57,610 bases of DNA from a bacterium (lineage in GTDB: Bacteria; Arandabacterota; Arandabacteria; Arandabacterales; Arandabacteraceae): contig JALGZP010000016.1 in NCBI GenBank assembly GCA_025774845.1, positions 1 through 57,610 on the forward strand, written 5' to 3'. This document shows, in pieces, positions 2,311 through 24,917 of the stretch. The notes beneath the pieces are model-generated. The model did not search any database. It worked only from the letters and a program-made list of their open reading frames with translations, and was not told the DNA's origin. Each line of letters starts with the position of its first letter. Positions within the stretch are counted from its first letter, which is position 1. The translations under genes were made by a program, and so were the position numbers.

Positions 2311-2380
2311 AGCCCAACCTCCATAGTGGTCACTTTGCAATCACCGTCCGTGTGCGGGCAAAGCAATACAAAGAAGAGTC

Positions 2381-2509: not shown

Positions 2510-5461
2510 TCACCGGTCTGCCGGCCGGATCACACCCTTACCACTCCTGCCGTCTACCTTGACGACAAGCGGAGACGGGAACCTGATATGCTTCACGTAT
2601 TTTCCAACAGATGACACCTGACCGCTGCTCAGCCCGTCCCAATCAATGAAAGCTTCCCCTCTGCCATAGGGTACCGTCAGATACATGATACCGAGTGATG
2701 TCATGTTGTGGAAGAAATGCGTCCCGTGCGATGGGTCCACCCTGAAGTCCTCAAGCGATACCTCGATTATCGTTCTGGCTCCGGAAATCTGATCCCATTT
2801 TACGGGAACCCCGAGGAACCTGTCCCGGGTACCCCAGCGCCCCGGTCCGATGAGTATATATGGAGTGTCCCCGAGATCCCGGTTGATCTCACCGATCTCC
2901 TCAGCTATCTCCACGGTCTTCACCGAATCAAATGTCTCGGGAGCAACCAGCACGACATCGCGCAAACCCTCTATGACACCGTTACCGAGAGCCCTGTTCG
3001 TTGAGACCAAAGCACTTTTAATCTCCTCATCGGCGATCGCTACCTGTCTGCGCTCGCGAAGCGTCACCAGGGGCCGAATCTGCAGGAGATAGAACTCGGG
3101 TCTTCCGTCTACACCTGATGTCCCCGCAAACTCAATCTCCACCGGACGGCCCATCCCGCGCTCCCCGAGCCTGAGGAGCTCACTCACCACGTCGACGAGC
3201 GGCAGAGCTTTGTACTTGAGTATGCCGGCGAATGTTATCACCCTCGGCCCATGGGCCTCTACGCCGTCCCTTAACCTGTTGTCATTGGCGTCGTAGGTAC
3301 TTGCAAGATAGTCCAATGTGCCGTCACTGTCGGCGGTGGAGACGTCGAGCCTGCTGAGCGTCGCTTCCTCGCCTTCCGAAAGGTCGAAACAAGCGTTCCT
3401 GAGATCAAGTGCGTAGAACTGGCTCTGGGTGTTTCTGAGGATTTCCTCCGGATCCGTCGGGCCGGGCAGGATGTCGGGGTGAACAGGTGAAAAGCTCAGG
3501 ACTTTCCCACCTTCAATCACTATCTTGCCGAGACCCAGCGCGGCACTAACGATCCCATCTTCCCGCTTTAGCGGGGCGACGGGATAGAAGTTGTAGGACT
3601 GACCCACACCCGAGTAGATGGGGTAAAAACTATCCCCATATCGTTTCCCGACAAGCTTCTGGATCACCACGGCCATCTTCTCCTCGGCCTGGTGGACAGT
3701 GGTATGAACGTACGCCTTCGCACTTCTCGAAAACGTGGATGCATAGACAAGTTTGATCGCCTCACACAGCTGGTCCAGCCTGACAGGCTCATCCTCACAG
3801 TTGTTGGGCAGCATGTACGTGGCATACACACCGGCAAAAGGCTGGTTCTGGGAATCCTCGAGCAGACTCGAAGAACGGACGGCCAACGGCTCTCTCACGC
3901 GTGACAGGAATACATTCAGGGAGTTCTTTATATCCGGTGGCATTTCGGCGGCAATGAAACGCTCGGATATCTCACGATCAGGAAGATCTCCGGTCACAAT
4001 ATCGTAGAGACCGTTTTCATCCATGAACCTGTCGAATACGTCCGTTCCTATAACCAGCGTGTCCGGCAGGCGGACCCGAAGTTCCGCGAATTTGTTCCTG
4101 ATGTTGCTCTGATGAAGCAGTGCAGCAAGGAAGGCAAGCCCCCTTCCCTTTCCCCCAAGCGAACCGCCTCCAAGCCTTGTGAACGTCTGTTCGAACTCGA
4201 AGTCCTCCTGTGAGAAATCGGTTATCACACCGAGCCGCTTCTCCTGCCGTGATCCCTTGATGACTTCGAGCAGCCACTTCGTCATTTCCTCATCATTCTT
4301 AAAGTCTGAGACCCTTCTGGGTTTAAGCTCCATCGCCATTGCGATTTCCCCTCGTGCCATCAGCCATCTGGAGAAATCGTTTCTAGCTCCGTGGTAACGC
4401 ACCGACTCAAGCGGGACCTGCTGTACCAGTTCCACGAACTCGCTTATGTCACGTGCCCGTGCGATCTGTTCACCGCCAGACATCGCGAAAATGAAGTCAC
4501 CAAAGCCCAGGCGCTCCTTGAGGAAGTCGCGCAGGTCCTGCGACGGCGTTTCAGACCGTTTGTAAAAAAAGGGGAGATTCAGGCGCTCGGCCCTCTCACT
4601 GTGTTCGGGTTGTGAGGATTGCATGAGAACAGGTATGTCCTCATCCACCACTTCCTCCACGAACTGGAAGCCGGCGTCCTCTCTGAGCTGGCCCCCCCTC
4701 CGGTACGAGACATCCGTGATGATACCAAGCAGGTGGTTTCTATACTTGTCATAGAGCTCCTTGCCCTGTTCGAACGTCTCTGCCAGCAGAATCTTGGGTC
4801 TGGCTTTCTTTCTGAACCATTTCTCCTGCTCGTTGAGACCCACCTCTATGAGAGCCTGGGTCTGCTTCATTATCTCCGTGTAGATCACAGGAAGGAATCC
4901 GGAGTAGTCAATGGGTGAGTCTTCGATTATCAGCACGGCCTTGACCACCCCGTGTTTGCTGTCTGCCTCGATGTTCGCTCGATCCTCTACATACTTGGTG
5001 ATTACGAGAAACAGCGCTGCGTCACCGGTCCAGTAGAATACCTTGTCGATCCCGGGGGCCCCGCCCGGTTTGTAGAATATTGAAAGAGCACCAGGATCCG
5101 TGGCCAACAGTACGACCGGGACATCTCCCCTTATCTCTTTTGCCTTTTTGCCGAATTCATACGGATCCAGGTCGGCGATCTGGCTCATCGTGATGATCAG
5201 GTCATACCGTCCAAGGCGCAGTTCGCTCAGAGCTTCCCTGCCCGAGCGGACGCGGACCACCTGGGGAGGAGACGACAAGGCCAGATCCTGATACTCCCCC
5301 GATATCTGCTCTGTGAGGAGACCCTCCTCTTCCAGAATGAATGCATCGTAGAAACTGGATACGAGCAGGATCTTGGTGACCTTGAACTTCATCAAGTGGT
5401 AGAGGTCGTGGAACGTGGGTTTGTAGTCCATCTCGCTATCTGCCATATGAGGATCATACAT
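2510..5461 (-). CDS. PEP-synthase-like ATP-grasp protein with two receiver-like domains
   Basis: A 983-residue cytoplasmic protein. Residues ~30-170 and ~180-335 resemble response-regulator receiver folds: the first has lost the phospho-acceptor (IITMSQ), the second keeps an Asp at the expected place (GIITDVSY). From ~425 comes the nucleotide-binding domain of pyruvate phosphate dikinase / PEP synthase, with LGGGSLGGKGRG (~430) and LAVRSSSLLEDS (~527). The phosphohistidine swivel and the PEP-binding TIM barrel of true PEP synthase are absent, so it cannot carry out the whole PpsA reaction alone. It is the last gene of the benzoyl-CoA reductase operon, 45 bases after its neighbour. Such receiver-PPDK_N proteins occur in FCB bacteria with no settled role. 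The start could also be ATG 5446; neither has a good Shine-Dalgarno site. Confidence 0.8.
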   Translation of the reverse strand: MYDPHMADSEMDYKPTFHDLYHLMKFKVTKILLVSSFYDAFILEEEGLLTEQISGEYQDLALSSPPQVVRVRSGREALSELRLGRYDLIITMSQIADLDPYEFGKKAKEIRGDVPVVLLATDPGALSIFYKPGGAPGIDKVFYWTGDAALFLVITKYVEDRANIEADSKHGVVKAVLIIEDSPIDYSGFLPVIYTEIMKQTQALIEVGLNEQEKWFRKKARPKILLAETFEQGKELYDKYRNHLLGIITDVSYRRGGQLREDAGFQFVEEVVDEDIPVLMQSSQPEHSERAERLNLPFFYKRSETPSQDLRDFLKERLGFGDFIFAMSGGEQIARARDISEFVELVQQVPLESVRYHGARNDFSRWLMARGEIAMAMELKPRRVSDFKNDEEMTKWLLEVIKGSRQEKRLGVITDFSQEDFEFEQTFTRLGGGSLGGKGRGLAFLAALLHQSNIRNKFAELRVRLPDTLVIGTDVFDRFMDENGLYDIVTGDLPDREISERFIAAEMPPDIKNSLNVFLSRVREPLAVRSSSLLEDSQNQPFAGVYATYMLPNNCEDEPVRLDQLCEAIKLVYASTFSRSAKAYVHTTVHQAEEKMAVVIQKLVGKRYGDSFYPIYSGVGQSYNFYPVAPLKREDGIVSAALGLGKIVIEGGKVLSFSPVHPDILPGPTDPEEILRNTQSQFYALDLRNACFDLSEGEEATLSRLDVSTADSDGTLDYLASTYDANDNRLRDGVEAHGPRVITFAGILKYKALPLVDVVSELLRLGERGMGRPVEIEFAGTSGVDGRPEFYLLQIRPLVTLRERRQVAIADEEIKSALVSTNRALGNGVIEGLRDVVLVAPETFDSVKTVEIAEEIGEINRDLGDTPYILIGPGRWGTRDRFLGVPVKWDQISGARTIIEVSLEDFRVDPSHGTHFFHNMTSLGIMYLTVPYGRGEAFIDWDGLSSGQVSSVGKYVKHIRFPSPLVVKVDGRSGKGVIRPADR

Positions 5462-5506
5462 CTCAACCGGATGGGGTTCAATTCAAAGTCGGGTCAGGTG
5501 TGTGGA

Positions 5507-5722
5507 TTACCGGGATGGCTTGCGGGTGTAGATGGTCTTATAGAGCTCGGGGTGATCTCTCATACATGAGATACAGCCGGGCTCCTCGGCGGGGTCAAAC
5601 GGTTCGACGTGGACTTCGAAGCCCATCTGCTCGTACATCCTCCCTATCTCCGACAGCCGTGGTTCGTCATAGGTGGTCCGTCTTTCCCAACCCTCGCTTT
5701 CGAGATCCTGCTGCCGTGTCAC
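5507..5722 (-). CDS. Small conserved CxxC protein
   Basis: A 71-residue protein starting at GTG 5722, which follows GAGGAGG closely; the gene lies 9 bases after the large flavoprotein, so the two are surely cotranscribed. The chain is charged and soluble and has one CxxC (EEPGCISCMRDHPELYKTIY). A single CxxC could bind metal with a partner or act in thiol chemistry. I know no assigned function. The tight coupling suggests it is an accessory of the flavoprotein or of the reductase. Confidence 0.7.
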   Translation of the reverse strand: MTRQQDLESEGWERRTTYDEPRLSEIGRMYEQMGFEVHVEPFDPAEEPGCISCMRDHPELYKTIYTRKPSR

Positions 5723-5731
5723 TGTGCCTCC

Positions 5732-8257
5732 TCAAAAGAGATCGTCAAGATCGTCTTCTCCACCACCCGGGAGCTCACCATGCTCCTTGAGGTATTGCTG
5801 TATGAGCTCGCTCTCCCGTTTGGTGTACATGGGGTCCTGCTCAAGTGTGAAGAACTTGGCACTCTCGTTTTCTTCGAGAACCTCGGCAAGGCTTGCTTTG
5901 AGGTTCATAACACCCTTTATAGAGATCACCTTCTTCTCGGCGTCGTAGAGCTGGAACACGCCCTCGGTCTCGGGAGCGCTCTCTACGGACTCAGGCATTA
6001 GCTCAAAGTAAAGCTCAACGCTCGGCGGCAGAGCTACCCCTGCTATCGCAAGCCGGAGATCGCAGTTGAAGCACCGGGCCGCCTCCAAGCGGGCCTGGTC
6101 TGCCGTAAGAGTCTCCTCACAAGATGCAAAGGTGCTGGTCCTGCCGCCCGCGTCGAGTGTTCCAGGTTTGATGCGTTCAAGCCCGGCGAAGTTCTCTATT
6201 TTCCCGAGGCGGTGCTCCACCGGCTCCGGATCTAGAAGCGTGACTTCGATATCACCGTCACCACCCAACGATCTGTCTATCTCGACCGCCGCCTTCCGGC
6301 CCGCCGCGATGGCATCGATAACACTGCCGGGACCCGCCGCAACATCACCACCGGCGAAGACCTTTGCCATTTGGGTCGCAAGTGTATCTTCGTCGATTTC
6401 GATCGTCCGATCCGGTGAAAGGCCACAGCTCTCGAATGGCCCTGATGATGCATCCTGGCCGATTGCAAGTATTACGACATCGGCCGGGAGGTCCCGTGTC
6501 TCGCTTTCGTCATATGTCGGGCTGAAGCGACCTTTCTCGTCAAACACGCGTGTACAGCGCTTGACCTTAAGACCCATCACTCTACCGTGACCGGAATCGA
6601 CTTCGACCGGACCCCAGCCCGTTACCAGCTTTACTCCCTCATCGCGTGCCTCTTCGATTTCCCAGTCGTGCGCCGGGAGTTCTTCGGGTGATTCGAGGCT
6701 CACCATGGTGACATCACCCGATCCCAGGCGACGCGCAACCCGGGCCGCATCGACGGCAACGTTTCCGCCACCGACAACCACGACTCGCTTGCCGTCAAAC
6801 ACGCCGGCATCGATCTTTCCGAGCGAGCGGTCTCGTAGGAAATCCATACCCCAGTAGACACCATCGAGATCACGACCCGGAAGGTCGATCTTCTTTGATA
6901 CATGGGCACCGGTCGCGACAAACACAGCATCGTACCCCGATGCGAGTTGTTCAAACCGCGCCTGATCGACCTTTGAGGCACATTCTATTTCAACTCCCAT
7001 GCTGCGCACTTCTTCGAGATCTTTCTCAAGCAGTTCACGTGGGAACCGGTACTCAGGGATCCCGACACGCAGCATACCGCCGGCTTCGGGAAGTTCCTCG
7101 AACACGGTGACCGCATGACCCTGCCCGGCCAGGTAGTAGGCGGCAGTCAGACCGGCAGGCCCGCTACCCACGACGGCGACCTTCTTACCCGTCGAAGGCT
7201 TCCCGGCGACCCTCGAATGCCATTCGCCGGTATCACTATCCACTGCGAAGCGCTTGAGCCGGCAGACCGAGACTGCCGTTGTCACCTGACCCCGGTGGCA
7301 CACCTCCTCACATGGATGAAAACACACATAACTCGGTGCAAAGGCAAGCGGCAGTTTCTCCCGGATCACCGCTATTGCTTTTCCTGTCTCTCCGTCGGCG
7401 ATGTGACGTACGAACCTCGGAATATCCACACCCGCAGGGCAGGAGCTCCTGCATGGAACAAGTTTCTTCTCACGATCCTCGCCGACTGCGCGTTCCTTGT
7501 CCATAAGGGCACCTGTCGGGCAGACCTCGATACACGCGCCGCAGAACCGGCAATGGCTTTCTTTGCGTGTCGGTCCCTCAACCGTCCCCACGACCGGTTT
7601 ACCATCTCTGATCACAAACGAGAGCGTACCCACATCGCGGAGATCGCGGCAGGCCCGGACGCATCTCAGGCAGCCGATACAGAGCTCGGTATTGTGATCG
7701 AACAGAGGTTCATCCTTCAGGGAGGGCAACCCCCGAGGCTTGTACTTGGAGACGTCCTGGGGCACCCCGATGAATTGGGATACCCGCTGGAGCTCACACG
7801 AACCAAGCAGATCACAACAGCGCTCGTTTTCGGGCACATTGGTAGAGCACTGGGTTATCGAGCACCCTTGAGCCTGGGCACATGTAAGACATGTATGCGG
7901 ATGTTCTGAAAGGAGAGCCGTCAGCTTCTTGCGTCGCTCGGCCAGTACACCTTCAGAGTCAGTTGCGACAGCCATCCCGTCCACGACCTCTGTCGCGCAC
8001 GAGCGGACTATTTCACCATCGATCTCCACAACACAGAGCCCGCAGCCATCCCAGGTGGCTTCCGGATCATCGGTTTCGATGCGCTCCCCACCGCGGAAGA
8101 CAAAGGACTCACCCTTGATATCATCAACACATGCAAGGTCGGGGTGCGAACAGATCGATGGGATATAGATCTCGGCGTCACGTGCGGCATCGAGGATGGT
8201 TGAACCCGCCTCTGTACTGACCCCGGTACCGTCTATCGTGAGTTTAACGCGGGCCAC
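5732..8257 (-). CDS. Multidomain iron-sulfur FAD oxidoreductase, probable ferredoxin reductase (BzdV-like)
   Basis: An 841-residue protein. Order of domains: an N-terminal 2Fe-2S domain (residues 1-105; DGCGLCVVEI), a NuoG-like His/Cys cluster segment (HPHTCLTCAQAQGC, ~118-132), two 4Fe-4S motifs (CIGCLRCVRAC ~192 and CRFCGACIEVCP ~234), then a GltD-type module with its own Cys-rich N-part, an FAD motif (VAVVGSGPAGLTAA ~357) and an NAD(P) motif (VVVVGGGNVAVDAAR ~489). A C-terminal extension (~740-841) contains DPMYTKRESELIQQYL, which I cannot assign. In bzd clusters a GltD-like flavoprotein, BzdV, is thought to pass electrons from NAD(P)H to the ferredoxin that feeds benzoyl-CoA reductase. 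This protein is much larger than a plain GltD homologue and has enough clusters for electron bifurcation, which is inference only. Confidence 0.8.
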   Translation of the reverse strand: MARVKLTIDGTGVSTEAGSTILDAARDAEIYIPSICSHPDLACVDDIKGESFVFRGGERIETDDPEATWDGCGLCVVEIDGEIVRSCATEVVDGMAVATDSEGVLAERRKKLTALLSEHPHTCLTCAQAQGCSITQCSTNVPENERCCDLLGSCELQRVSQFIGVPQDVSKYKPRGLPSLKDEPLFDHNTELCIGCLRCVRACRDLRDVGTLSFVIRDGKPVVGTVEGPTRKESHCRFCGACIEVCPTGALMDKERAVGEDREKKLVPCRSSCPAGVDIPRFVRHIADGETGKAIAVIREKLPLAFAPSYVCFHPCEEVCHRGQVTTAVSVCRLKRFAVDSDTGEWHSRVAGKPSTGKKVAVVGSGPAGLTAAYYLAGQGHAVTVFEELPEAGGMLRVGIPEYRFPRELLEKDLEEVRSMGVEIECASKVDQARFEQLASGYDAVFVATGAHVSKKIDLPGRDLDGVYWGMDFLRDRSLGKIDAGVFDGKRVVVVGGGNVAVDAARVARRLGSGDVTMVSLESPEELPAHDWEIEEARDEGVKLVTGWGPVEVDSGHGRVMGLKVKRCTRVFDEKGRFSPTYDESETRDLPADVVILAIGQDASSGPFESCGLSPDRTIEIDEDTLATQMAKVFAGGDVAAGPGSVIDAIAAGRKAAVEIDRSLGGDGDIEVTLLDPEPVEHRLGKIENFAGLERIKPGTLDAGGRTSTFASCEETLTADQARLEAARCFNCDLRLAIAGVALPPSVELYFELMPESVESAPETEGVFQLYDAEKKVISIKGVMNLKASLAEVLEENESAKFFTLEQDPMYTKRESELIQQYLKEHGELPGGGEDDLDDLF

Positions 8258-8299
8258 AAACGCCTCCCGGAATGACTAATACGGTGTGTTTGACACGTC

Positions 8300-8593
8300 T
8301 CACCAGGAGTGTTCAATTGCACCCGGCTTGCAGGCCTGAACACACGGCAGATCCTCGGTCTTGTAGCCGTGGGCCGGCTTACACGGACCGCAGGAGTACT
8401 TTATCTTCTTCTTGTGCTCCTCGGTGACCGCGGCGACATCGGTCTCGGCATCGAGATCGAACTCGTTCTCGACCAGTTCCAGCACCTTTGCGGGGCATGC
8501 CTCAACACAGGCACCGCAGCCGTCACACTTGTCCGTGTCAATCGTAATGAAGAAGTCGCCCGAACCATCCTTGTAACCGTAATTGGCAAGCAT
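8300..8593 (-). CDS. bzdM: Ferredoxin of the benzoyl-CoA reductase (BzdM-like)
   Basis: A 97-residue protein beginning at ATG 8593 after GGAGG. It has one classical 4Fe-4S motif (CDGCGACVEACP, residues ~23-34) and a second, irregular Cys group with long inserts (CGPCKPAHG ... PCVQACKPGAI), so two clusters are likely. It lies 15 bases after bzdQ and 42 bases before the large flavoprotein. The order N-O-P-Q-M is that of the Azoarcus bzd operon, where BzdM is the low-potential electron donor for the reductase; the same job is inferred here. Confidence 0.8.
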   Translation of the reverse strand: MLANYGYKDGSGDFFITIDTDKCDGCGACVEACPAKVLELVENEFDLDAETDVAAVTEEHKKKIKYSCGPCKPAHGYKTEDLPCVQACKPGAIEHSW

Positions 8594-8608
8594 CCTTTGC
8601 CTCCCCGT

Positions 8609-9514
8609 CTATTTCTTCTTCATCTTCTTAAGGTAAAGGGCCCGTGCAAAGAGCGCCCCACCCATGGCGCCGGCTATCTGTGTATCCATGTCCGTGGGGA
8701 GCGGTTCGATGTTGAGTTCCTTGGCAAGACGCTTGACCACACCCGGATTCTTGGCTATGCCGCCCGTGATCGCAAACTCCTTCTCGACACCGATACGCTC
8801 AAGCAGATCAACGATCCGATGGGCCATGGCCGAGCAGTAAGCCGCAAGCACCTTCTCCTTGTCCCAGCCTTCACGAAGAAGACCCGATGCCTCGCTCTTG
8901 GCGAAGACCACACAGGTTGACGACACAGGCGGTGGTTCCTCTTCAACCGAAAGACTCATCTCGCCGACGTCGTTTATGTGAACACCGAGGAGATCGGCAA
9001 AGACCTCCATCCCCCGGCCCGTACCCGCCGCACACTTGTCGTTCATGAGAAACGCCTTGACCTTGCCTTTCTCATCACAGTGAATGGCCTTGCAGTCCTG
9101 GCCGCCCATATCGAGGACGGTACGCACGGTCGGACCGTACATGAAGTTGGCCCCGCGCGCGTGACAGGCGATCTCGGTGATCGCCTTGGTTGCAAAAGGC
9201 ACGTTGACACGGCCGTAACCCGTGCCCACGGTGGCTTTGAGATTGTCGAGCGTAAGCCCCGTCCCCTCAAATGCCCATTCAATCGCTTTGTTTGCGCTCT
9301 CAGGTGAATCGGAACCCGTACGCATGTTGCTGTAGGCATAGAGTTTGCCGTCAACCATCACCACCGCCTGGGTGGATACACTACCCACATCCACACCCGC
9401 GCTCACGACTTCACCCTGCTTCCAATCGAGATCGGGATTGGTCCACCTCGACTCCGTCCACCGCCAGTATTCGGCCCCTTTCCCCTCTTTGACCATCCTG
9501 TAATCCTCAGTCAT
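8609..9514 (-). CDS. bzdQ: Benzoyl-CoA reductase, bzd-type, ATPase subunit Q
   Basis: A 301-residue member of the BadF/BadG/BcrA/BcrD ATPase family (acetate-kinase/actin fold). ATG 9514 is chosen over the longer frame from 9586 because GGAGG lies 8 bases upstream and the protein then opens with the family-typical MVKEGKGAEYWRWTES. Visible motifs: phosphate loop AGVDVGSVSTQAV, MGGQDCKA, the cluster-ligand motif KCAAGTG (~160), a second Cys in STCVVFAKSE, and ITGGIAKNPGVV. The two ATPase subunits share a 4Fe-4S cluster and couple hydrolysis of two ATP to electron transfer onto the aromatic ring. It overlaps no neighbour in this shorter form and follows bzdP by 34 bases. Confidence 0.88.
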   Translation of the reverse strand: MTEDYRMVKEGKGAEYWRWTESRWTNPDLDWKQGEVVSAGVDVGSVSTQAVVMVDGKLYAYSNMRTGSDSPESANKAIEWAFEGTGLTLDNLKATVGTGYGRVNVPFATKAITEIACHARGANFMYGPTVRTVLDMGGQDCKAIHCDEKGKVKAFLMNDKCAAGTGRGMEVFADLLGVHINDVGEMSLSVEEEPPPVSSTCVVFAKSEASGLLREGWDKEKVLAAYCSAMAHRIVDLLERIGVEKEFAITGGIAKNPGVVKRLAKELNIEPLPTDMDTQIAGAMGGALFARALYLKKMKKK

Positions 9515-9548
9515 CTTGCAGTCCTCCGTACAATTCCACCATACCGGA

Positions 9549-10316
9549 TTACTTGCTCGCGGCAACAAGTGCCGCGCCGAGGGCACCGACGAACTCGGGC
9601 CTCTCGGGAATCAGTACCTTTGTTTCAAGATCCTCTTCAAGCGACTTAACGAAACCGATGTTATAGGATACGCCGCCTATGAGGACTATCTTCTCCTCGA
9701 TGCCCACACGACGGACCATCGATGTGATCCGGTCCGCGATCGCGTCGTGAATCGCACGCGCCATATCCTGCTTTGAGGTTTTCTTGTGAACAAGTGTTAC
9801 GACCTCGCTCTCGGCGAAGACCGCGCACTGGGCATTCATGGGTATTGCCTGGGTGCTTTCAAGCGAGAGCGGTCCGAGCTCCTCGAGCTTAACCTCGAGC
9901 GCACGGGCCATCGACTCTGTGAACGCCCCTGCACCCGCGGCACACTTCTCATTGATCGCGAAGTCAATGACCTTACCCTGAGCATCTATCTTGATCGCCC
10001 GGCCCTCTTCCGCACCGACATCAATCACCGTACGGGCATCGGGAAATAGATGTACTGCGCCCCTTGCGTCCGCACCGACTTCGGTCACATCATCGTCCTT
10101 GAATCCGGGTTCGTTCTTGCCGGCCCCGGTGGCAACTACCTTCTCGATGTCACCTGCCGCGATTCCCGCCTCGGCGAGTGCCTTATCGTAGGCCTCCTGT
10201 GCCGCATTGGCCGTATCCATCCCCGCCGGGGCCATGGACTGGGCCATGATCTCACCGTCCTTGACGATCACTACCCTTACGTTCTTGGACCCGCAGTCCA
10301 CACCTGCCGTAATCAT
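9549..10316 (-). CDS. bzdP: Benzoyl-CoA reductase, bzd-type, ATPase subunit P
   Basis: A 255-residue BadF/BcrAD-family ATPase, shorter than subunit Q because it lacks the N-terminal ~30-residue extension. It starts at ATG 10316 behind GGAGG. Motifs: AGVDCGSKNVR, VGAEEGRAIK, KCAAGAG (~124) with the cluster ligand, NAQCAVFAESE, and LIGGVSYNIG. It is expected to pair with BzdQ as the electron-activating module of the heterotetramer. Assignment to P rather than Q rests on size and on the N-O-P-Q gene order. Confidence 0.85.
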   Translation of the reverse strand: MITAGVDCGSKNVRVVIVKDGEIMAQSMAPAGMDTANAAQEAYDKALAEAGIAAGDIEKVVATGAGKNEPGFKDDDVTEVGADARGAVHLFPDARTVIDVGAEEGRAIKIDAQGKVIDFAINEKCAAGAGAFTESMARALEVKLEELGPLSLESTQAIPMNAQCAVFAESEVVTLVHKKTSKQDMARAIHDAIADRITSMVRRVGIEEKIVLIGGVSYNIGFVKSLEEDLETKVLIPERPEFVGALGAALVAASK

Positions 10317-10354
10317 GCGGGCTCCTCCCTTCTACATGTGGAAGTTCGATTCTA

Positions 10355-11698
10355 TCAGACTTCTATCTTGTTCAGGCTAAGCGTTTCCATGAAGGCATCG
10401 ATACGGGCCATCGTGCGTGCCTCGTCAAACTCACGCTCATCACCCATGTTGCCCTCGAAAGTCATAACCGGAAACCCTGCCTTCTGAAGTGCGAGCCGGT
10501 TCTCAGCGATCCCGATCGTCAGGCCCTCACACCCGCGGTTGTAATGAAGCATCACACCATCCAGCTTCCAGTCACGGGCAATCTTTATCATCATCGCACT
10601 CTTCAAGGCAGGATGATAGAAATGCTGCCATTCGGGCTTATTTATCTCAAACTTGATGTATTCAGCCAGCATACCTTCGCGGTCCTTAGGCAGATCATCG
10701 ACCGAGGCGGGAAAAGTCTTAGCGCCCCAGGTCCCGTCCTCCTTGAGCTCCCACTGACCGACGAGACCGAAGGTGTAAAGCGAACCGATCGAAATGCATC
10801 CGAACTCCTCGAGATACCGGAACACTTTAAGGAATCCCCACGGCGGCTGCGTATCGCTTATAAGACGCGCCCGCTCTTCAGCGATTGCCGCGATTCCCCG
10901 ATCGACACGGTCCTCAACGTCTGCAAGCAACTCCTCGTAGAAATCCGCACACCACTGGCTGGCCTTTGCCAGGACGCCGAGTACATAGAGCGAGTAGAGC
11001 GTTTTCTCCTCTAACGGTGCGGGTATTGTCTTCTGGAGCTCGCACACCTTGGCCCACAACGCGGTCGAACGCATATGGTTGTATATGGCCTTCCTGAGAA
11101 GCTCATCGTTGTACTCGCGCCCGGTAACCTTGACAAGAAAATCTATCCCGTCCAGGCACTGGCCGACAACATAGTCGATCGCATGCTGGGGCATCGGTAC
11201 ATATTTGAAAGTCTCACCGTCCGCCTTCATGGCCGGTGCGCAACCGACATCCACGCTGAACATCGGAACACCCGGCTCGAGATCGCATACAACCTGGTAC
11301 CACTTCGAGTGCGAGCAGCAGATGTGGTCCTGGAAGATGAAATCGGGCTTTGGCCACTTCTTCGAAAACTCGGGGAAGGCGTACTCATCAAGTATTATGC
11401 TGCCCCAGTAGTTACGCATATATGAACACAGGTCACGGGCGTACCCGGCCCGCTCGGTCGCCTCGAGACACCGCAGGGAAAACTTCTTGTTGAAGGCGAT
11501 AGAAGCCGCATAAGGCTCCGATGTGATCGACCAGACATCATCACCCAGACCGCGCGGGATAGCATCTAGTGTCCACGCGCCGCCGGCCCAGCGGAGCCCA
11601 CCCTTCTCGTGGGCCTTGGCGTAATTCTCATAGAACTTGAGCCGCAGTTCCTTGGCCTTGTTCCACAGTCTGAGAGGCTCTGTCTTGTACTTTGCCAT
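10355..11698 (-). CDS. bzdO: Benzoyl-CoA reductase, bzd-type, subunit O (BcrB-like)
   Basis: A 447-residue protein of the 2-hydroxyacyl-CoA dehydratase D-component family (HgdB/FldC fold), length as expected for the larger catalytic subunit. The start ATG 11698 follows AGGAGG. Conserved cysteines likely to hold the active-site double-cubane or 4Fe-4S cluster are in DHICCSHSKW and NRGCEGLTIG. With BzdN it forms the module that binds benzoyl-CoA and performs the Birch-like two-electron ring reduction to cyclohexa-1,5-diene-1-carbonyl-CoA. Gap to bzdN 33 bases, to bzdP 38 bases. Confidence 0.88.
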   Translation of the reverse strand: MAKYKTEPLRLWNKAKELRLKFYENYAKAHEKGGLRWAGGAWTLDAIPRGLGDDVWSITSEPYAASIAFNKKFSLRCLEATERAGYARDLCSYMRNYWGSIILDEYAFPEFSKKWPKPDFIFQDHICCSHSKWYQVVCDLEPGVPMFSVDVGCAPAMKADGETFKYVPMPQHAIDYVVGQCLDGIDFLVKVTGREYNDELLRKAIYNHMRSTALWAKVCELQKTIPAPLEEKTLYSLYVLGVLAKASQWCADFYEELLADVEDRVDRGIAAIAEERARLISDTQPPWGFLKVFRYLEEFGCISIGSLYTFGLVGQWELKEDGTWGAKTFPASVDDLPKDREGMLAEYIKFEINKPEWQHFYHPALKSAMMIKIARDWKLDGVMLHYNRGCEGLTIGIAENRLALQKAGFPVMTFEGNMGDEREFDEARTMARIDAFMETLSLNKIEV

Positions 11699-11731
11699 TA
11701 CGGCTTCCTCCTGTATCTCTTCAGTGTCATA

Positions 11732-12856
11732 TCAGAACAGGTCGTCCTCGGCCAGCATCTCGAGAAATGCCTCGGTCCGTATCTTGAACTGACCCACAGG
11801 AACAGTCACATCGAGCTCGAGGAAAAGAACCTTGAGCCCCGCATCCTCAAGCGCCTTACGTATAGCCGGGATATCAATCTCGTGCGGGTCACAGAACTTC
11901 TGTTGAATTATGATGGCACCGGCGACGTCCCATTCCTTGGCAAATGACAGAATCCGGCCGATGCGTTTGCGCTCCGGCCAGTCTTTGGTCGGACACGGGG
12001 TACGCTTGACATACCGCGCCGCGATCGCATCCATGGGATCACCACCGTTTTCGACCTCATCCCAGAAGTAACGGGTACCCGTACAGTGGTCGTCCTGGAC
12101 AATGGTCGCATCCAGACTCTCGACCATACCGATGAATTCTACATCGTCGTTCTCACTCCCGAGGAGCATAAGCCTCGTCCCCGTCGGGCGGCCGATCGTC
12201 CGGCCCTTGAGTTCCTTAAGGGCATCCTCGACGACACGGGCGTGCTCGGTCTTATCCGTCATCTGGCTTGAGACGACCATCTGCATTGCTTCAAGTCCCG
12301 TGAGCGGCACTTCATCGGCCTTGCGAAGCTCATAAACCTGCTTCATCATCTGGCGGTCACGGTTTACCGTTTCGATTCCGCGTCTCAAGTCATCATCCGT
12401 TATCTTCTTAGCGGTCCACTCCTCGAGGCGGGTCTTGAAGATTTCGAACTCGGCACGTGTGAAGGGAACGGCACGTTTCGATTGCACATGGTGTGGCATC
12501 GGGAGGTAGTAACTGAACTCAGACGGAATGTGAAGATCCCAGCTCGTATATGCCTGTCGAACGTGAAGACAGCTCTGGGCTATCATGATACCGTCCAGGT
12601 AATCGTAGCGGCCCTGGAGTCCCTGCGCCAGGACATCACGACAGAATGGGCAGAACATCGCGAAAATGTGGGGCTCGGTCACGTTCTGGGGTTCATGGCT
12701 TCCCAGTATGCGCACCGGCAGGACGCCGGCCGCATAGACGATCTCCTCCGGCACGTAGGTGCAGAAGTACCCGAGCACTTTGCCGCCCGTTTTCTTCTTC
12801 CACTCCTTTGCATATTCGTGGCGGGCGTCATACCACTCCTTGAACATCTCAATCAT
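11732..12856 (-). CDS. bzdN: Benzoyl-CoA reductase, bzd-type, subunit N (BcrC-like)
   Basis: A 374-residue 2-hydroxyacyl-CoA dehydratase-family protein and the first gene of the operon. The start ATG 12856 follows GAGGAGG. Cysteine blocks typical of the smaller catalytic subunit are seen (FCPFCRDVLAQG, IAQSCLHVRQAY, IIIQQKFCDPHEID near the C-terminus). Together with BzdO it makes up the substrate-reducing half of the enzyme. A promoter with an overlapping palindrome lies at 12908-12936. The presence of N, O, P, Q and M in order identifies a class I, ATP-dependent reductase rather than the tungsten BamB-I type. Confidence 0.88.
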   Translation of the reverse strand: MIEMFKEWYDARHEYAKEWKKKTGGKVLGYFCTYVPEEIVYAAGVLPVRILGSHEPQNVTEPHIFAMFCPFCRDVLAQGLQGRYDYLDGIMIAQSCLHVRQAYTSWDLHIPSEFSYYLPMPHHVQSKRAVPFTRAEFEIFKTRLEEWTAKKITDDDLRRGIETVNRDRQMMKQVYELRKADEVPLTGLEAMQMVVSSQMTDKTEHARVVEDALKELKGRTIGRPTGTRLMLLGSENDDVEFIGMVESLDATIVQDDHCTGTRYFWDEVENGGDPMDAIAARYVKRTPCPTKDWPERKRIGRILSFAKEWDVAGAIIIQQKFCDPHEIDIPAIRKALEDAGLKVLFLELDVTVPVGQFKIRTEAFLEMLAEDDLF

Positions 12857-14139: not shown

Positions 14140-15030
14140 ATGAGGCTCCCCGACATTGTGCTTCACGAACCTGAGACAATCGCAGAGGCATGCGATCTCT
14201 TAAACGAGTACTGCCCCCGCGCAAGGGTGCTTGCTGGCGGAACGGACATCCTGGTCGACCTCAAGCAGGGCCGGATAACAGGCGTAGAGCGTCTGGTCTC
14301 GCTTAAGAGGATAAGCGGGCTCGACTCGATCGATGAAACCGGCGACGCGATTCGTATCGGAGCTCTCGTCACCCTGAATCAGGCATCCCGTGATCGAAAT
14401 ATAGTGAAGTACTTCCCAGCGCTCATCGATGCCCTGGAATCCATGGCGGCCTACCCGGTGAGAAACATCGCCACCGTCGCAGGTAACATCGCAGGTGCGG
14501 TACCGTCATCGGATCTTGCGCCGTTCTTTATCGTGGCCGGCGGTGAGGCGGTGCTTTCGTCGGGCGATGGGGAGCGTTCCGTACGCATTGAGGATTACTT
14601 TCTCGGCCCCAGGCAGACCGTGTGCGGCGAATGCGAAATCATGACTCATCTTGTTTTACCCAAGCCGGGACCGGCAACGGGGATGTCATACCATAAGTTC
14701 ATGCTGAGAGAGGCCAACGCGCTTGCTGTTGCAGGAGTGGGGGCGATGCTCGCCTTGAAGGTAGGTCCGGCAGATACGATCCTTGAAAGCCGTGTCGCAC
14801 TGACGGCGGTTGCCCCTAAACCCGTGATTGCCCGGGATGCGGCCGCACGTCTCGAGGGGAAGTCACCTTCGCCGGAGGCATTTGAGGAGGCCGGCCGGAT
14901 CGCGCGATGTGAGGCCAAACCCATCACCGACATACGGGGTACGGATGAGTACCGGGCGAACCTGGTGGAGGTGCTGACGGTAAGAGCACTGAACGACGCT
15001 CTGGAACGAGCCAGATCGGGAGGTGCTTAA
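14140..15030 (+). CDS. FAD-binding subunit of a xanthine dehydrogenase-family hydroxylase (YgfM/CoxM-type)
   Basis: A 296-residue protein with the CoxM/CutM FAD fold: ARVLAGGTDILVDLK near residue 30 binds FAD, and YPVRNIATVAGNIAGAVPSSDLAP (read in two halves around residue 110) is the second FAD loop. A C-terminal CO-dehydrogenase-like domain follows (~180-290). The gene stops one base before the probable start of the fused iron-sulfur/Mo subunit, and the downstream Shine-Dalgarno site lies inside it, so the two are translationally coupled. The extra 4Fe-4S loop that marks the beta subunit of 4-hydroxybenzoyl-CoA reductase is not present. The pairing with a fused FeS-Mo partner resembles E. 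coli YgfM-XdhD. Confidence 0.82.
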   Translation: MRLPDIVLHEPETIAEACDLLNEYCPRARVLAGGTDILVDLKQGRITGVERLVSLKRISGLDSIDETGDAIRIGALVTLNQASRDRNIVKYFPALIDALESMAAYPVRNIATVAGNIAGAVPSSDLAPFFIVAGGEAVLSSGDGERSVRIEDYFLGPRQTVCGECEIMTHLVLPKPGPATGMSYHKFMLREANALAVAGVGAMLALKVGPADTILESRVALTAVAPKPVIARDAAARLEGKSPSPEAFEEAGRIARCEAKPITDIRGTDEYRANLVEVLTVRALNDALERARSGGA

Positions 15031-15031
15031 C

Positions 15032-18016
15032 TTGGGAGACGGAGCGGGTACCGTGCACAGAAGCATAGAACTCCGGGTGAACGGCCGGACGTATAACGTG
15101 TCGGTTAAGGATAACGAGATCCTGCTCGACGTCCTGAGGGACAAACTCCACCTTACCGGCACCAAGAAAGGGTGCGAGCTCGGCGTCTGCGGCGCGTGCA
15201 CCGTCCTGATAGATGGTGAGCCCGTCAACAGTTGTCTCGTTCTGGCGTCTTCACAGGAAGGTCATGATATAACCACGATCGAGGGTCTCGAGCAGGACGG
15301 CACCCTCCATCCCATTCAGAAGTCATTCATCAATGAGGGCGCGATCCAGTGCGGGTACTGCACACCGGGTATGATCCTGTCCGCCAGGGCACTGATCGAC
15401 CGGAATCCGGATCCATCTGATGATGAGATAAAGACGGCCCTCTCGGGTAGTCTCTGCAGGTGTACGGGCTACACCGCAATCATGCGTGCCGTCAAGAACT
15501 GGAAGAAATACAGTGATGAGACAGTGGGACACCCGGATGATCTCGAGAGTTATGCCACTGTCGGAAGAAGCATTCCGCGACTGGATGCCGCCGATAAGGC
15601 AACTGGGAGAGCCAGGTACACAGCCGACTATCACTTCCCCGGCATGCTTTGCGGACGGATCCTCGGAAGCACCGTGGCCCACGGGAAGATAAAAGACATA
15701 GACACATCCAAAGCATGTGCACTGCCCGGGGTGGTCTGCGTGATCACAGGTGAGGATGTACCCGATATCAAGTACGGGGTCTCACCCGCGCGCTACGATG
15801 AGTATGTCCTTGCCAAGGAGCTTGTCCGGTATGTCGGGGATGAAGTCGCCGCGGTTGCGGCAGTCGATGAAGAGACGGCGGAGCGCGCGATCGAGCTCAT
15901 CGAAGTCGATTATGAGGAACTCCCGGCGGTCTTTACACCCCGGGAAGCGATAGCCGAGGGTGCTCCTCAACTCCACGACCATCCTCGATTTAAGAACAAC
16001 ATAAATACCAGCGTGGAACACGATTTCGGTGACATTGAAAGAGGCTTCGAAGAGGCCGACTATATCCGGGAAGAAAGCTTTACCGGTAATCACACACATC
16101 AGAGCCCCATGGAACCCCATGCATCGATCGCGCAGTGGGAACAGGGCGGCAGACTGATCCTTTACACATCGACCCAGGTGCCTCATTACGTCCACTACAT
16201 GCTTGCCCACGTATTCCAGCTCCCCTTAGGAGAGATAAAGGTGATGAGCCCCGCGGTGGGTGGTGGCTTTGGTGGCAAGGCTGAGACAACACCTCTCGAT
16301 CTCTGTGCTTCCATACTGGCCAGGAAGACGGGGCGACCCGTCAAGATGGTCTATAGCCGTAAGGACATGTTCCATCATGGACGTGGAAGACATAAGCAGC
16401 ACATGCAGTTCAGACTCGGGGTTAAGAAAGACGGCACCATAACGGCCTTCGATAGCAAGATTTATCTCGACGGCGGAGCTTACACATCATTCGGGGTCGT
16501 GACCGCCTATTATGCCGGCAGCATGATGCCCACGCTCTATCACATACCCAACTACAGGTATCGCGGCTACCGTGTGTTTACGAACAAACCCGCATGCGGT
16601 GCTATGAGAGGTCACGGTGTACCCCAGCCGAGATTTGCCTTTGAGTGTCTTCTCAATATGGTGGCCGATGAGATCGGGATCGACCCCGTTTCAATCAGAA
16701 TGAAGAACGCCATGGACAGGAATACACGGACCGTAAACGATCTCGATATCAGAAGTTGCGAGTTCAAGGCAACGCTTGAGGCAGCTGCCCGTGACTCCGG
16801 CTGGGATGAGAAGTACAGGAATCTCCCGCCGGGCAAGGGCATCGGGATCGGATCGGGCGGATTTGTATCGGGGGCAGGCTATGCCATCTACCGTGGTGAG
16901 GTCAGGATGTCGCATGAAAAGACCCAGAAGACTTTCATGAAGAAGGCCGTCTTCCCGCATGCGAACGCTGTGGTCAAGATCCTCGAAGATGGTATGGCGG
17001 CGGTCCTGTTCATCGGGGCGGCCGAGATCGGACAGGGCGCCGAAACCGTGTTGAGCCAGATGTGCGCGGAGGCGCTTGGAATCCCGGTTGAGCGCGTTCA
17101 CATCCGCTGTGAGGATACGGACATAAGCCCGATAGACCTTGGGGCCTACTCCTCGAGGGTCACGCTGATGGGTGGTAATGCTGTCGTGATGGCATCGGGG
17201 CAAGTCGTAGAGCAATTGCTACCCATCGCCGCAGGGGAGTTGGGTTGCGATGCTTCCGTGCTGACCGTACACGACGGCAGAATCTCCTCGAAGGACGATG
17301 CGAACATCAGCATGGACTGGGCCGAAGCAGCGCGTATCTACTTCAATGAAAACGGACCGCTGGTCGGAACCGGATTCTACAAACCACCGGAAGGACTCGG
17401 AGGCGACTACAAAGGTGCCGCCGTGGGGACCAGCCCCGCCTATTCCTTCGGAACAACGATCTGCGAACTAGCGGTGGATCTCGATACGGGCAAAGTCACA
17501 CTGGATAAGTTCACGGATTCTCATGATTGCGGTACACCCATAAACCCGAAGATGGTTCATGGCCAGGTAGAGGGTGCAGTGGTGATGGCGGCCGGTGAGA
17601 CCCTGATGGAAGACGTTGTCTTCGATGAAAAGGGTGACATTGTTAACCCGAATCTCCATGAATATCTCGTCATGACGATTAAGGATGCACCCGAGATCAT
17701 GGGCGGCATTGTTGATTCATACGAACCGGAAGGCCCGTTCGGGGCGAAGGAAGTGGGCGAGGGTTCAACCCTGCCTGTGATGGGTGCGGTGGCCCATGCA
17801 ATAGCACGGGCCGCAGGTGTGTGGGTTACGGATCTGCCTGTTACACCTGAGAAGATCCTCCGGGCGCTCAAGGAGAAGCATTACAGGGAAGAGCGCGGTA
17901 CCCGGGAAGAAACCAGAGGTACCTGGCAGGAAGGGCGGCCATCCAAACCGTTTGAACCTAAGCCCGTTGTGGGGAAGCGTGCACCCGATCCTAAGACAGT
18001 CCGTCGTGGAGAATAG
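15032..18016 (+). CDS. Fused 2Fe-2S / molybdopterin subunit of a xanthine dehydrogenase-family hydroxylase (XdhD-like)
   Basis: About 994 residues. The start is uncertain: TTG 15032 follows GGGAGG by 8 bases; GTG 15053 follows GGAG by 8 bases. Residues ~1-75 are a plant-type 2Fe-2S domain (CELGVCGACTVLIDG), ~80-155 the helical 2Fe-2S domain (GYCTPGM, SLCRCTGY), then the aldehyde-oxidase/xanthine-dehydrogenase small domain and the molybdopterin domain with GGGFGGK (~409) and GPFGAKEVGE (~903), which carries the catalytic Glu. In most family members the FeS and Mo parts are separate chains; the single-chain order seen here is that of E. coli XdhD, a presumed selenium-dependent purine hydroxylase. 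Substrate unknown: purine, nicotinate-like or aromatic CoA ester are all possible. The C-terminal ~50 residues are polar and family-atypical. Confidence 0.82.
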   Translation: MGDGAGTVHRSIELRVNGRTYNVSVKDNEILLDVLRDKLHLTGTKKGCELGVCGACTVLIDGEPVNSCLVLASSQEGHDITTIEGLEQDGTLHPIQKSFINEGAIQCGYCTPGMILSARALIDRNPDPSDDEIKTALSGSLCRCTGYTAIMRAVKNWKKYSDETVGHPDDLESYATVGRSIPRLDAADKATGRARYTADYHFPGMLCGRILGSTVAHGKIKDIDTSKACALPGVVCVITGEDVPDIKYGVSPARYDEYVLAKELVRYVGDEVAAVAAVDEETAERAIELIEVDYEELPAVFTPREAIAEGAPQLHDHPRFKNNINTSVEHDFGDIERGFEEADYIREESFTGNHTHQSPMEPHASIAQWEQGGRLILYTSTQVPHYVHYMLAHVFQLPLGEIKVMSPAVGGGFGGKAETTPLDLCASILARKTGRPVKMVYSRKDMFHHGRGRHKQHMQFRLGVKKDGTITAFDSKIYLDGGAYTSFGVVTAYYAGSMMPTLYHIPNYRYRGYRVFTNKPACGAMRGHGVPQPRFAFECLLNMVADEIGIDPVSIRMKNAMDRNTRTVNDLDIRSCEFKATLEAAARDSGWDEKYRNLPPGKGIGIGSGGFVSGAGYAIYRGEVRMSHEKTQKTFMKKAVFPHANAVVKILEDGMAAVLFIGAAEIGQGAETVLSQMCAEALGIPVERVHIRCEDTDISPIDLGAYSSRVTLMGGNAVVMASGQVVEQLLPIAAGELGCDASVLTVHDGRISSKDDANISMDWAEAARIYFNENGPLVGTGFYKPPEGLGGDYKGAAVGTSPAYSFGTTICELAVDLDTGKVTLDKFTDSHDCGTPINPKMVHGQVEGAVVMAAGETLMEDVVFDEKGDIVNPNLHEYLVMTIKDAPEIMGGIVDSYEPEGPFGAKEVGEGSTLPVMGAVAHAIARAAGVWVTDLPVTPEKILRALKEKHYREERGTREETRGTWQEGRPSKPFEPKPVVGKRAPDPKTVRRGE

Positions 18017-21733: not shown

Positions 21734-23008
21734 TCAATCCACAACCTCCACGCAGATAGCTCCACCCTGTCCGCCGCCTATACACGCCGAGGCAATCCCC
21801 GTACGCTGTCCGCGTCTTCGAAGTTCATACACAAGGTCGATCGTCATTCTTAAACCCGTCGCGGCAATGTTATGGCCGACCGCTATGGCCCCGCCGTTCA
21901 CATTGGTTTTGTCCCGCGGAAGTCCGAGTTCCTTTTCAACAGCAAGATACTGAGGCGCGAATGCCTCGTTGACCTCAAAGAGATCTATGTCACCCAGTGT
22001 GAGATTGAGTTTCTCAAGCAGACCCTTGATGGCGGGCACGGGACCCTGACCCATAATCTCGGGATCCACCGTTGCGAAGTTGTAACCTTTGATCCGGGCG
22101 ATATACGGGATCTTGTGCCTGTCCGCAAATGCACGGTCCAGAAGCACGACACTTGCGGCTCCATCACTTATCTGACTTGCATTACCAGGTGTTACAAGCC
22201 CGTCGCCACCAAGTAACGGCCGCAACCCGGCCAACCCCTTGACATCGACATCGTACCTCGTCCCTTCGTCCCGCCAGTAACTTATGTTCCGCCCCCGCTG
22301 GTCGGTCGTGTCGACTTCGAAGCTCCCCCGGAGATAGCCCTTCTCTTTCGGTGGTGAGAATCTGTTCCATTGCTTAAGCTGGGCTTTCCTGGATCGTTCG
22401 TGACTGAGACATGCGAACTCGTCACATTCATCCCTCGTGATGCCTATCTCCTTACCGTACTTGTCCGCCGTCCTGGGCATCAAGGTATCAAAGAGATAAT
22501 GATTGAATCCCTCCAGTAGGTAGTCCGTCGTCGGAGCGCCATCAAAGTCCCACACGCTGTCCGGCTTGCGGCGCCCATGGTTGATCAGGTTGGTCTGAGA
22601 CATGCTTTCGGTTCCAAAGGAGATGATGCAGTTCATCTTGTTGGCGTCTTTCGCGGTAATCAGATCGTACGCATCCGCGACCACCTGAAAGCCCGTCCCG
22701 CAGATCCGAAGCGTTGTCTTACCCGGTGCACAGCCCAGGTTTCCTTCGTCTCCTATCTGGTCGGCCACTCTCATGGCGACATTCCTCGGTAGGTAGATCT
22801 GCTGGCAGCGGGAATCTATGTAGATCATCCCTGCAATCACCTGATCGATCTTGACTTTGCTCATGTCTATCGCGGAACGCGCAAGGGCTTCACGGACGGC
22901 GATGACCCCAAGGTCTTCCGCCGACAGGTAGTTGTAGTACCCTCCGTGTTTCCCAATCGGTGTGCGCGCCGCACCCGCGATGACCACATCGGTCTCAGCT
23001 CGCTTCAT
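21734..23008 (-). CDS. Acetyl-CoA acyltransferase (thiolase), probable 3-oxopimelyl-CoA thiolase
   Basis: A 424-residue thiolase starting at ATG 23008 behind GGAGG. The nucleophilic Cys is in LRICGTGFQVVADAY (~100), the second active-site block is GGAIAVGHNIAATGLR (His kept; the usual Pro after GH is Asn), and the third is SACIGGGQGGAICVE with the catalytic Cys near the C-terminus. It sits between the dienoyl-CoA hydratase and the HAD-crotonase fusion, gaps 32 and 44 bases. Cleavage of 3-oxopimelyl-CoA to glutaryl-CoA and acetyl-CoA fits the context, but substrate cannot be read from sequence. Confidence 0.82.
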   Translation of the reverse strand: MKRAETDVVIAGAARTPIGKHGGYYNYLSAEDLGVIAVREALARSAIDMSKVKIDQVIAGMIYIDSRCQQIYLPRNVAMRVADQIGDEGNLGCAPGKTTLRICGTGFQVVADAYDLITAKDANKMNCIISFGTESMSQTNLINHGRRKPDSVWDFDGAPTTDYLLEGFNHYLFDTLMPRTADKYGKEIGITRDECDEFACLSHERSRKAQLKQWNRFSPPKEKGYLRGSFEVDTTDQRGRNISYWRDEGTRYDVDVKGLAGLRPLLGGDGLVTPGNASQISDGAASVVLLDRAFADRHKIPYIARIKGYNFATVDPEIMGQGPVPAIKGLLEKLNLTLGDIDLFEVNEAFAPQYLAVEKELGLPRDKTNVNGGAIAVGHNIAATGLRMTIDLVYELRRRGQRTGIASACIGGGQGGAICVEVVD

Positions 23009-23040: not shown

Positions 23041-23820
23041 TTACTCGTTGTTCCACTCGGGCGCCCGCTTCTCAAGAAACGCCTTGAGTCCCTCCGTGGC
23101 GTCCGCCGTGGACATGAGGTCTTTGAGATACAGGCTCTCTATCTTTCCTATGTATGCTTTGTACTGCTCTCTCATCATCATAGCAGCCGCTGCCTTGGTC
23201 ATCCGGAGCGATGACGCGCTCTTGGGATGAATCTGTTTCTCGAAGAAGGATGAGACAGTCTCGTCTAGTTTCTCGGCGTCAACAACCTTGTTGATCAAAC
23301 CCTGCCTGTGGAGCTCCTCCGCGGAAAATGACTGGCCCGTCATCGCCATCTCCAGGGCAAGCTGGCCGCTGCACTTAAGCGGTACCAGGACGCATGCCAC
23401 AGGCGGAAAGACACCGAGCTGCATCTCCGGTACCCCGAGCTTGGCCCCTCCAGCGGCAAAGATGAGATCGCAGGCAAGAACAAGTTCAAAGGCCCCACCC
23501 AGACACTGGCCAGACACCCTGGCAAGCGTTGGAATATCACAATTGAGCAGGTCCCCGATCATGCTGTGAAACTTAGGCAGCATGTCCCCTACCCTCTCCG
23601 CCGTATGTTCCTCCACGCTGGCCCCGAAACTGAAGTGCTTGCCCTGCCCGGTGAAGATCACGAGTTTCTTCTGCGGCTTCGCGGCGTCTTCACGAAGTTG
23701 GGCCGAGATCTCTTCCATCATCGCGGCCGAGAGAATGTTCGCAGGAGGAGGCCCCAGGGCGATTTCGGTGATTTCACCGTCATTTCTTTCGGTGACTTCG
23801 ATAAGTTTGTGGTTCATCAT
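23041..23820 (-). CDS. dch: Cyclohexa-1,5-diene-1-carbonyl-CoA hydratase
   Basis: A 259-residue crotonase. The start ATGATG overlaps the upstream stop by four bases (23817-23820), showing translational coupling. Oxyanion-hole segments are GKHFSFGASVEEH (~65) and VSGQCLGGAFELVLACDLIFA (~110). The combination with the adjacent 6-hydroxycyclohexenecarbonyl-CoA dehydrogenase and the presence of a benzoyl-CoA reductase in the window single out the dienoyl-CoA hydratase (Dch/BzdW/BamR) from general enoyl-CoA hydratases. It adds water to the product of BzdNOPQ to give 6-hydroxycyclohex-1-ene-1-carbonyl-CoA. Confidence 0.8.
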   Translation of the reverse strand: MMNHKLIEVTERNDGEITEIALGPPPANILSAAMMEEISAQLREDAAKPQKKLVIFTGQGKHFSFGASVEEHTAERVGDMLPKFHSMIGDLLNCDIPTLARVSGQCLGGAFELVLACDLIFAAGGAKLGVPEMQLGVFPPVACVLVPLKCSGQLALEMAMTGQSFSAEELHRQGLINKVVDAEKLDETVSSFFEKQIHPKSASSLRMTKAAAAMMMREQYKAYIGKIESLYLKDLMSTADATEGLKAFLEKRAPEWNNE

Positions 23821-24878: not shown

Positions 24879-24917
24879 AATGCCTCCTTTTTTGTGTACC
24901 AGCAAAAGACCATATAG

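Follow-up and report, generated by a model that had tools for sequence, protein, structure and literature searches.

What does the bzd operon on the 57,610-nucleotide contig JALGZP010000016.1 encode, in what kind of organism does it reside, and how did it come to be there? The window analysed here is this entire contig (C28 of a 3.3 Mb genome bin that is 87% complete), and on its minus strand the genes bzdN, bzdO, bzdP, bzdQ, bzdM and bzdV and a 71-amino acid open reading frame (ORF) follow one another from position 12856 to 5507 with every frame intact (Table 1). Our reading, which is built on sequence comparison and on analogy to a characterized enzyme and to which we assign a probability of about 0.88, is that these genes would specify a working bzd-type class I benzoyl-coenzyme A (CoA) reductase, the ferredoxin of which is probably recharged by BzdV, in an anaerobe of the Fibrobacterota-Chlorobiota-Bacteroidota (FCB) group that would have acquired these genes by transfer from a pool common to several phyla.

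The assignment of the genes is as follows: BzdN, BzdO and BzdQ each score above the NCBIfam equivalog cut-off of the corresponding bzd-type subunit, and in a search of the PDB, BzdN and BzdO match the BzdNO structure 8s02 far better than they match 2-hydroxyacyl-CoA dehydratases. By homology, BzdN would be the subunit of the catalytic dimer that carries the double-cubane [8Fe-9S] cluster, and BzdO the active-site subunit that binds benzoyl-CoA and the aqua-[4Fe-4S] cluster. BzdP is an acyl-CoA dehydratase activase (no bzdP-specific NCBIfam model is among its matches). There are two different ATPases, both of which have the KCAAGxG motif and the presumed bridging-cluster cysteines; the latter are invariant in BzdP (C125 and C164 in 73 of 73 sequences) and in BzdQ (C185 and C225 in 72 of 72, numbered from the GTG at 9586 with which the bzdQ ORF opens; the ATG at 9514 is the likely start). 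The ferredoxin gene bzdM and the oxidoreductase gene bzdV both lie inside the operon, and BzdM ends in HSW in all 69 aligned sequences. An earlier note, made from the letters of this contig, had described a bzd-type class I operon in N-O-P-Q-M order with two KCAAGxG ATPases, two dehydratase-family subunits (BzdN and BzdO are both HGD-D by Pfam) and a ferredoxin, all of which is borne out here. Its span of 2510-12856 is right at the start of the operon; the operon ends at 5507, and 2510-5461 is a PPDK_N-domain gene of the host: two genomes of the same family that have no BzdO match carry 65-66% identical orthologues of it. In one relative (G004), the upstream neighbour of the PPDK_N gene seems to encode an ABC-F protein and is not bzdV.

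Table 1. Features of the window, with the evidence for each (bit scores are followed by the family cut-off where one applies)
Feature	Position	Strand	Evidence
bzdN	11732..12856	-	TIGR03190, 467 bits (454); PDB 8s02_B, E 1.6e-134; protein ends ...AEDDLF
BzdN C-terminal tail EDDLF	11735..11749	-	Tail-like end in 73/78 homologues
bzdO	10355..11698	-	TIGR03191, 638 bits (449); 60% identity to 8s02_A; PDB 8s02, E 1e-176
bzdP, ATPase/electron-activator subunit	9549..10316	-	TIGR00241, 228 bits, above cut-off; KCAAGAG
bzdQ, ATPase/electron-activator subunit	8609..9514	-	TIGR03192, 413 bits (380); KCAAGTG
bzdM, [4Fe-4S] ferredoxin	8300..8593	-	Fer4 families; C-terminus HSW
bzdV	5732..8257	-	Pfam: [2Fe-2S] and [4Fe-4S] modules, NfnL/GltD flavin module; protein ends ...DDLDDLF
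BzdV C-terminal tail LDDLF	5735..5749	-	Conserved end after variable linker
71-amino acid CxxC protein directly after bzdV	5507..5722	-	Conserved ORF
PPDK_N-domain regulator-like protein	2510..5461	-	Host gene, outside bzd operon
had	23817..24905	-	TIGR03201, 449 bits (339)
dch, dienoyl-CoA hydratase-like	23041..23820	-	TIGR03189, best family, below cut-off
Lower-pathway thiolase	21734..23008	-	TIGR01930, 303 bits, above cut-off
3-Hydroxyacyl-CoA dehydrogenase-type protein (HADH), 817 amino acids	19236..21689	-	NCBIfam N-terminal matches
FAD subunit, 4-hydroxybenzoyl-CoA-reductase-like molybdenum hydroxylase	14140..15030	+	TIGR03195, 101 bits, far below cut-off (405)
Fused Fe-S/molybdenum (gamma-alpha) subunit, same hydroxylase	15023..18016	+	TIGR03194, best family, 879 bits, below cut-off (995)
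FlgD_ig-tailed protein	859-2340		Above Pfam cut-off
Endonuclease with NFPNPF-type tail	38311-39975		Tail read from sequence

Host of the contig and probable transfer of the operon

RpoB was chosen to place the host because the bin has no 16S ribosomal RNA gene. The host RpoB is 85-87% identical to that of genomes of the same family, and in the RpoB tree its phylum lies in a set with Zixibacteria, Chitinispirillaceae, KSB1, Ignavibacteria/Bacteroidetes and Gemmatimonadota (99 in the Shimodaira-Hasegawa-like approximate likelihood ratio test, SH-aLRT). By this sequence marker the host is an FCB-group bacterium of a small phylum and not a proteobacterium, which agrees with the earlier note, as do the FCB-type sorting tails (FlgD_ig and an NFPNPF-type tail) that it had seen on neighbouring proteins. 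The asparaginyl-tRNA synthetase (AsnRS) encoded at 36247-37599, which that note had put forward as a marker, was rejected for this purpose since it is itself divergent: it is 46-52% identical to the AsnRS proteins of relatives, which share 60-70% among themselves, and it is probably a foreign or divergent type.

This AsnRS, together with the lack of BzdO in the other genomes of the phylum, could be taken as a sign that a contig of some other bacterium was binned here by mistake, but such an origin is very improbable. For genes at 33-36 kb and 52-57 kb, genomes of the same family or order have orthologues of 65-82% identity, and for this reason we do not regard the contig as a contaminant; the genes at 52-57 kb are in synteny on a contig from a second family of the order, the ortholog of the PPDK_N gene beside the operon is 66% identical, and a further gene of the pathway (oah) is on another contig of the bin. 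The tetranucleotide make-up of the contig also fits the rest of the genome (correlation 0.89-0.94, versus 0.54-0.82 for relatives), an agreement that says little by itself because binning uses such make-up.

One scan of representative genomes gave 249 BzdO relatives, and the best 80 of these 249, which were analysed further, span more than a dozen phyla in both domains. They include Asgard archaea, Thermoplasmatota, Planctomycetota, Gemmatimonadota, Zixibacteria, KSB1, Latescibacterota, Ignavibacteria, Aminicenantes, Elusimicrobia, Chloroflexi and Bacillota, and the gene order NOPQMV is kept at most loci in both domains. BzdO was not found in the 7 other genomes of the host's phylum (8 genomes in all), and a plasmid search for close BzdO proteins returned only distant dehydratases of about 22-25% identity. 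In a tree of concatenated NOPQ proteins (74 rows) the window falls in a six-member clade with Pirellulaceae, two Chitinispirillaceae, one 'Deltaproteobacteria' and one Acidobacteria record (SH-aLRT 100); the sister of this clade is a pair of Thermoplasmatota (98), and its outer placing shifts with taxon sampling. Compared with the Pirellulaceae locus (L010), the window's BzdNOPQ is 80.5% identical and the host's RpoB 49%, whereas compared with Zixibacteria both values are 64%. Because BzdO is absent from the sibling genomes, the clade spans several phyla and the pattern of identity is inverted relative to RpoB, passage of the bzd operon between phyla by transfer, which the earlier note had suspected and for which it had proposed the comparison with siblings, is well supported by the sequences.

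Operons of this type do occur in several other FCB phyla, which would suit descent from a common FCB ancestor, with loss from most relatives and no transfer. We consider this, too, very unlikely, since the approximately unbiased (AU) test on a 42-row set rejects a single FCB clade (p-AU 7e-47) and the window operon is nested with those of Planctomycetota, Acidobacteriota and 'Deltaproteobacteria' at an SH-aLRT of 100. AU tests on smaller sets also reject a grouping with Zixibacteria and KSB1 (p-AU 1e-5).

Two records deserve mention in their own right. One Thermoplasmata genome (bin33; L015 and L026) has two bzd operons from different clades, and the RpoB of a record titled Gemmatimonadota (bin29; L013) lies near Zixibacteria and away from other Gemmatimonadota, so that its title may be wrong.

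Active site, predicted electron supply and pathway

The residues that matter for catalysis were checked by alignment to 8s02, the BzdNO dimer of Aromatoleum sp. CIB, whose residue numbers are used here (n = 82; the 80 environmental relatives are the best matches to the window and thus a biased sample). The BzdO cluster ligands C95, C128 and C380 and the catalytic E65 and H131 are identical in 82 of 82 sequences, and the window BzdO also keeps W46, Y97, Y298, Q274 and the equivalents of Leu302 and Leu383; its BzdN keeps the conserved cysteines and the equivalents of R53, R267, R290 and H330, the Arg/His set around the double cubane. The exceptions among the checked BzdO residues are Ser44, which is Gly, and Thr125, which is Asp. 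Both positions are near catalytic residues, and Gly44 and Asp125 are present in the window BzdO and in all 80 environmental relatives, so it is the crystallised Aromatoleum enzyme that is the odd one in this sample. Ser44 is near the benzoyl ring in the crystal structure but is not an established defining feature, and because it is not known to be required, Gly at this position does not exclude the window enzyme from the bzd type.

That the catalytic subunits are instead those of a 2-hydroxyacyl-CoA (2-hydroxyglutaryl- or phenyllactyl-CoA) dehydratase, an outcome raised in the earlier note, is hardly credible: the proteins are of one superfamily and share the HGD-D assignment, and a separate HadB-like/activase pair is present on contig C58 of the bin, but the Bzd models outscore the dehydratase models by 638 to 117 bits for BzdO and 467 to 188 bits for BzdN, BzdO is 60% identical to its crystallised counterpart, the invariant His131 is replaced by Ala in HadB (PMC11971306), and two different ATPases, a ferredoxin and a ring-opening pathway accompany the catalytic subunits.

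The probable supplier of electrons to the ferredoxin is BzdV. Its AlphaFold model has a confident body (mean predicted local distance difference test score, pLDDT, of 89.5), the top Foldseek match of which is 9bov_A, an NfnABC subunit (E 1.3e-54); phmmer also finds 9bov_A (2.8e-117), with the modules differently ordered. BzdV has the same modules as the large subunits of NfnABC/StnABC (9bov, 8oh5 and 9n5u), its top matches in both fold and sequence, but its [4Fe-4S] pair stands before and not after the flavin module, and it has an extra C-terminal domain and tail. BzdV thus looks like a domain-rearranged relative of these electron-bifurcating large subunits, and because they are its best matches it is likely an NAD(P)H:ferredoxin oxidoreductase, in agreement with the putative BzdV role in PMC5658619; electron bifurcation by BzdV is possible. 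In the window operon no gene for a NuoE/NuoF-like partner could be made out; no search for one was made elsewhere in the genome. The small protein encoded after bzdV is present at 30 of the 51 bzdV loci that have at least 600 nucleotides downstream, and it has a conserved W, an EPRLSE-like stretch and a CxxC. AlphaFold predicts a compact alpha/beta fold for it (pLDDT 90), and it has no Pfam or NCBIfam family and no significant match among solved folds.

Genes for ring opening are found in two places, the window (Table 1) and contig C58, where oah scores 563 bits (cut-off 464). On C58 (record L099, 320-4452) a HadB-like dehydratase subunit, an activase and an ADP-forming acyl-CoA synthetase-like protein are also encoded in a row. 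No COX1-family match, and hence no haem-copper oxidase, was detected in the 87%-complete bin. Beside the operon, the molybdenum hydroxylase encoded at 14140-18016 scores 879, 101 and 187 bits against the alpha, beta and gamma models of 4-hydroxybenzoyl-CoA reductase and reaches none of their cut-offs (995, 405 and 258); in Aminicenantes (L020, L025 and L033), homologues of 70-71% identity are the immediate upstream neighbours of bzdN.

By analogy with the Aromatoleum enzyme, the system might work as follows: reduced ferredoxin BzdM would pass single electrons to the BzdPQ ATPase dimer, on which ATP hydrolysis would lower their potential; the [8Fe-9S] cluster of BzdN would relay them to the aqua-[4Fe-4S] cluster of BzdO, and BzdO would convert benzoyl-CoA to the 1,5-dienoyl-CoA. 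Dch, Had and Oah would then hydrate, oxidise and open the ring, HADH and the thiolase would shorten the product, and BzdV would probably recharge BzdM from NAD(P)H.

Several results weigh against this reading of a transferred and working pathway. The dch product scores 215 bits against a family cut-off of 292, and in the 87%-complete genome no benzoate-CoA ligase reaches its cut-off of 375 bits, the best match scoring 212. In a smaller AU set a sister relation with Fibrobacterota, which are also FCB, is not rejected (p-AU 0.20), so the most recent transfer may have been into a different lineage; the operon could have been lost in the relatives instead of gained here, and several records on the other side of the comparison are metagenome-assembled and could themselves be misbinned.

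A shared C-terminal tail in BzdN and BzdV

The non-homologous proteins BzdN and BzdV have a common, nearly invariant C-terminal tail in archaea and bacteria. Of 78 BzdN homologues, 73 end in [DE][DE]LF or a close variant of it (SEEELF in Aromatoleum), and 55 of 63 BzdV proteins have an LDDLF-like end, the remaining ends looking like truncated or broken frames. Within the BzdV tail, D838 and D839 are each conserved in 36 of 39 sequences, L840 in 39 of 39 and F841 in 38 of 39. It is preceded by a variable Gly/Glu/Asp linker, and the model has some of its lowest confidence at residues 838-841 (pLDDT below 50), which are predicted to be disordered; a disordered tail after a variable linker is what a short linear motif usually looks like. 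No published account of such a tail came up in a literature search, and as far as could be found the shared tail is new.

Might the likeness be coincidence, with a structural end of the fold in BzdN and an unrelated conserved end in BzdV? A distant BzdN paralogue (L076) ends in ENLLFD, so LF near the end of N-type subunits may be old and structural. Against this, [DE][DE][LM]F ends occur on 105 of 1382 non-overlapping ORFs in 79 loci, and each of these is BzdN (53), BzdV (51) or, once, the small protein; none of the same ORFs ends in a permuted control tail, and in BzdV the tail is predicted to be disordered and comes after a linker of variable sequence. Among 236 ORFs on the host's own sampled contigs, BzdN and BzdV are the only two with the tail. 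We put coincidence at a little short of an even chance. The small protein after bzdV also ends in DDLF in Chloroflexota (L072 and L078) and Thermoplasmata-type (L065) loci.

More tentatively, and with odds somewhat below even, the [DE][DE]LF tail may be a docking motif for one common site, perhaps pseudo-equivalent pockets on BzdP and BzdQ, that holds the catalytic dimer and its electron supplier in a transient supercomplex. Reductases of the Bcr and Mbr types are permanently tetrameric, unlike those of the bzd type. If the docking proposal is true, the tail would offer an explanation for how bzd-type reductases assemble and are fed with electrons.

Relation to known reductases

The window operon resembles the bzd cluster of Aromatoleum (Azoarcus) sp. 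CIB in its N-O-P-Q-M order, BzdO identity (60%), cluster ligands, acid/base residues and BzdN tail (which ends in ELF in Aromatoleum). It differs in lacking STU genes between M and V, in having Gly and Asp where Aromatoleum has Ser44 and Thr125, in the division of its ring-opening genes between two places, in the small CxxC protein after bzdV and in that no bzdA ligase could be found. The Bcr/Mbr class I enzymes (Thauera) carry out the same reaction with homologous subunits, but the Bcr model TIGR02263 scores only 142 bits here (cut-off 421); the class II Bam reductases also carry out this reaction.

The suggestion in the earlier note that this operon would widen the host range of class I reductases is not supported, given the 249 BzdO relatives in many phyla and a literature on class I enzymes outside Proteobacteria that goes back to 2017. 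Chloroflexi have a class I reductase with bzdNOPQ, bzdM and bzdV (PMC5736913), Asgard archaea have class I reductases (PMC8163825), and so have Aminicenantes, TA06, Thermoplasmata and Bathyarchaeota, where it was called surprising that strict anaerobes should have them (PMC6472368); for candidate phylum AABM5-125-24, the relevant portion of PMC7673041 gives class I or II reductase genes with the class unspecified. Because such reductases have been published, the headline of our finding is already known in kind. The Chloroflexi and Asgard operons are like this one in their class I genes, ferredoxin and bzdV and in belonging to anaerobes outside the facultative Proteobacteria; the present operon differs from the published environmental ones in its separate six-member clade and, so far as one can judge, in the phylum of its host.

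As a host record, then, the window adds one more lineage to an already long list. Its value lies in a documented multi-phylum transfer clade and in showing that bzd-type class I reductases, far from being a proteobacterial speciality, are widespread among uncultured anaerobes. Two results at the sequence level lend themselves to direct testing: the tail common to BzdN and BzdV, and the Gly44/Asp125 variant, which is found in every one of the 80 environmental sequences but not in the one bzd-type enzyme that has been crystallised. The finding also sharpens the energetic question raised in PMC6472368, namely why strict anaerobes would use the ATP-consuming class of benzoyl-CoA reductase.

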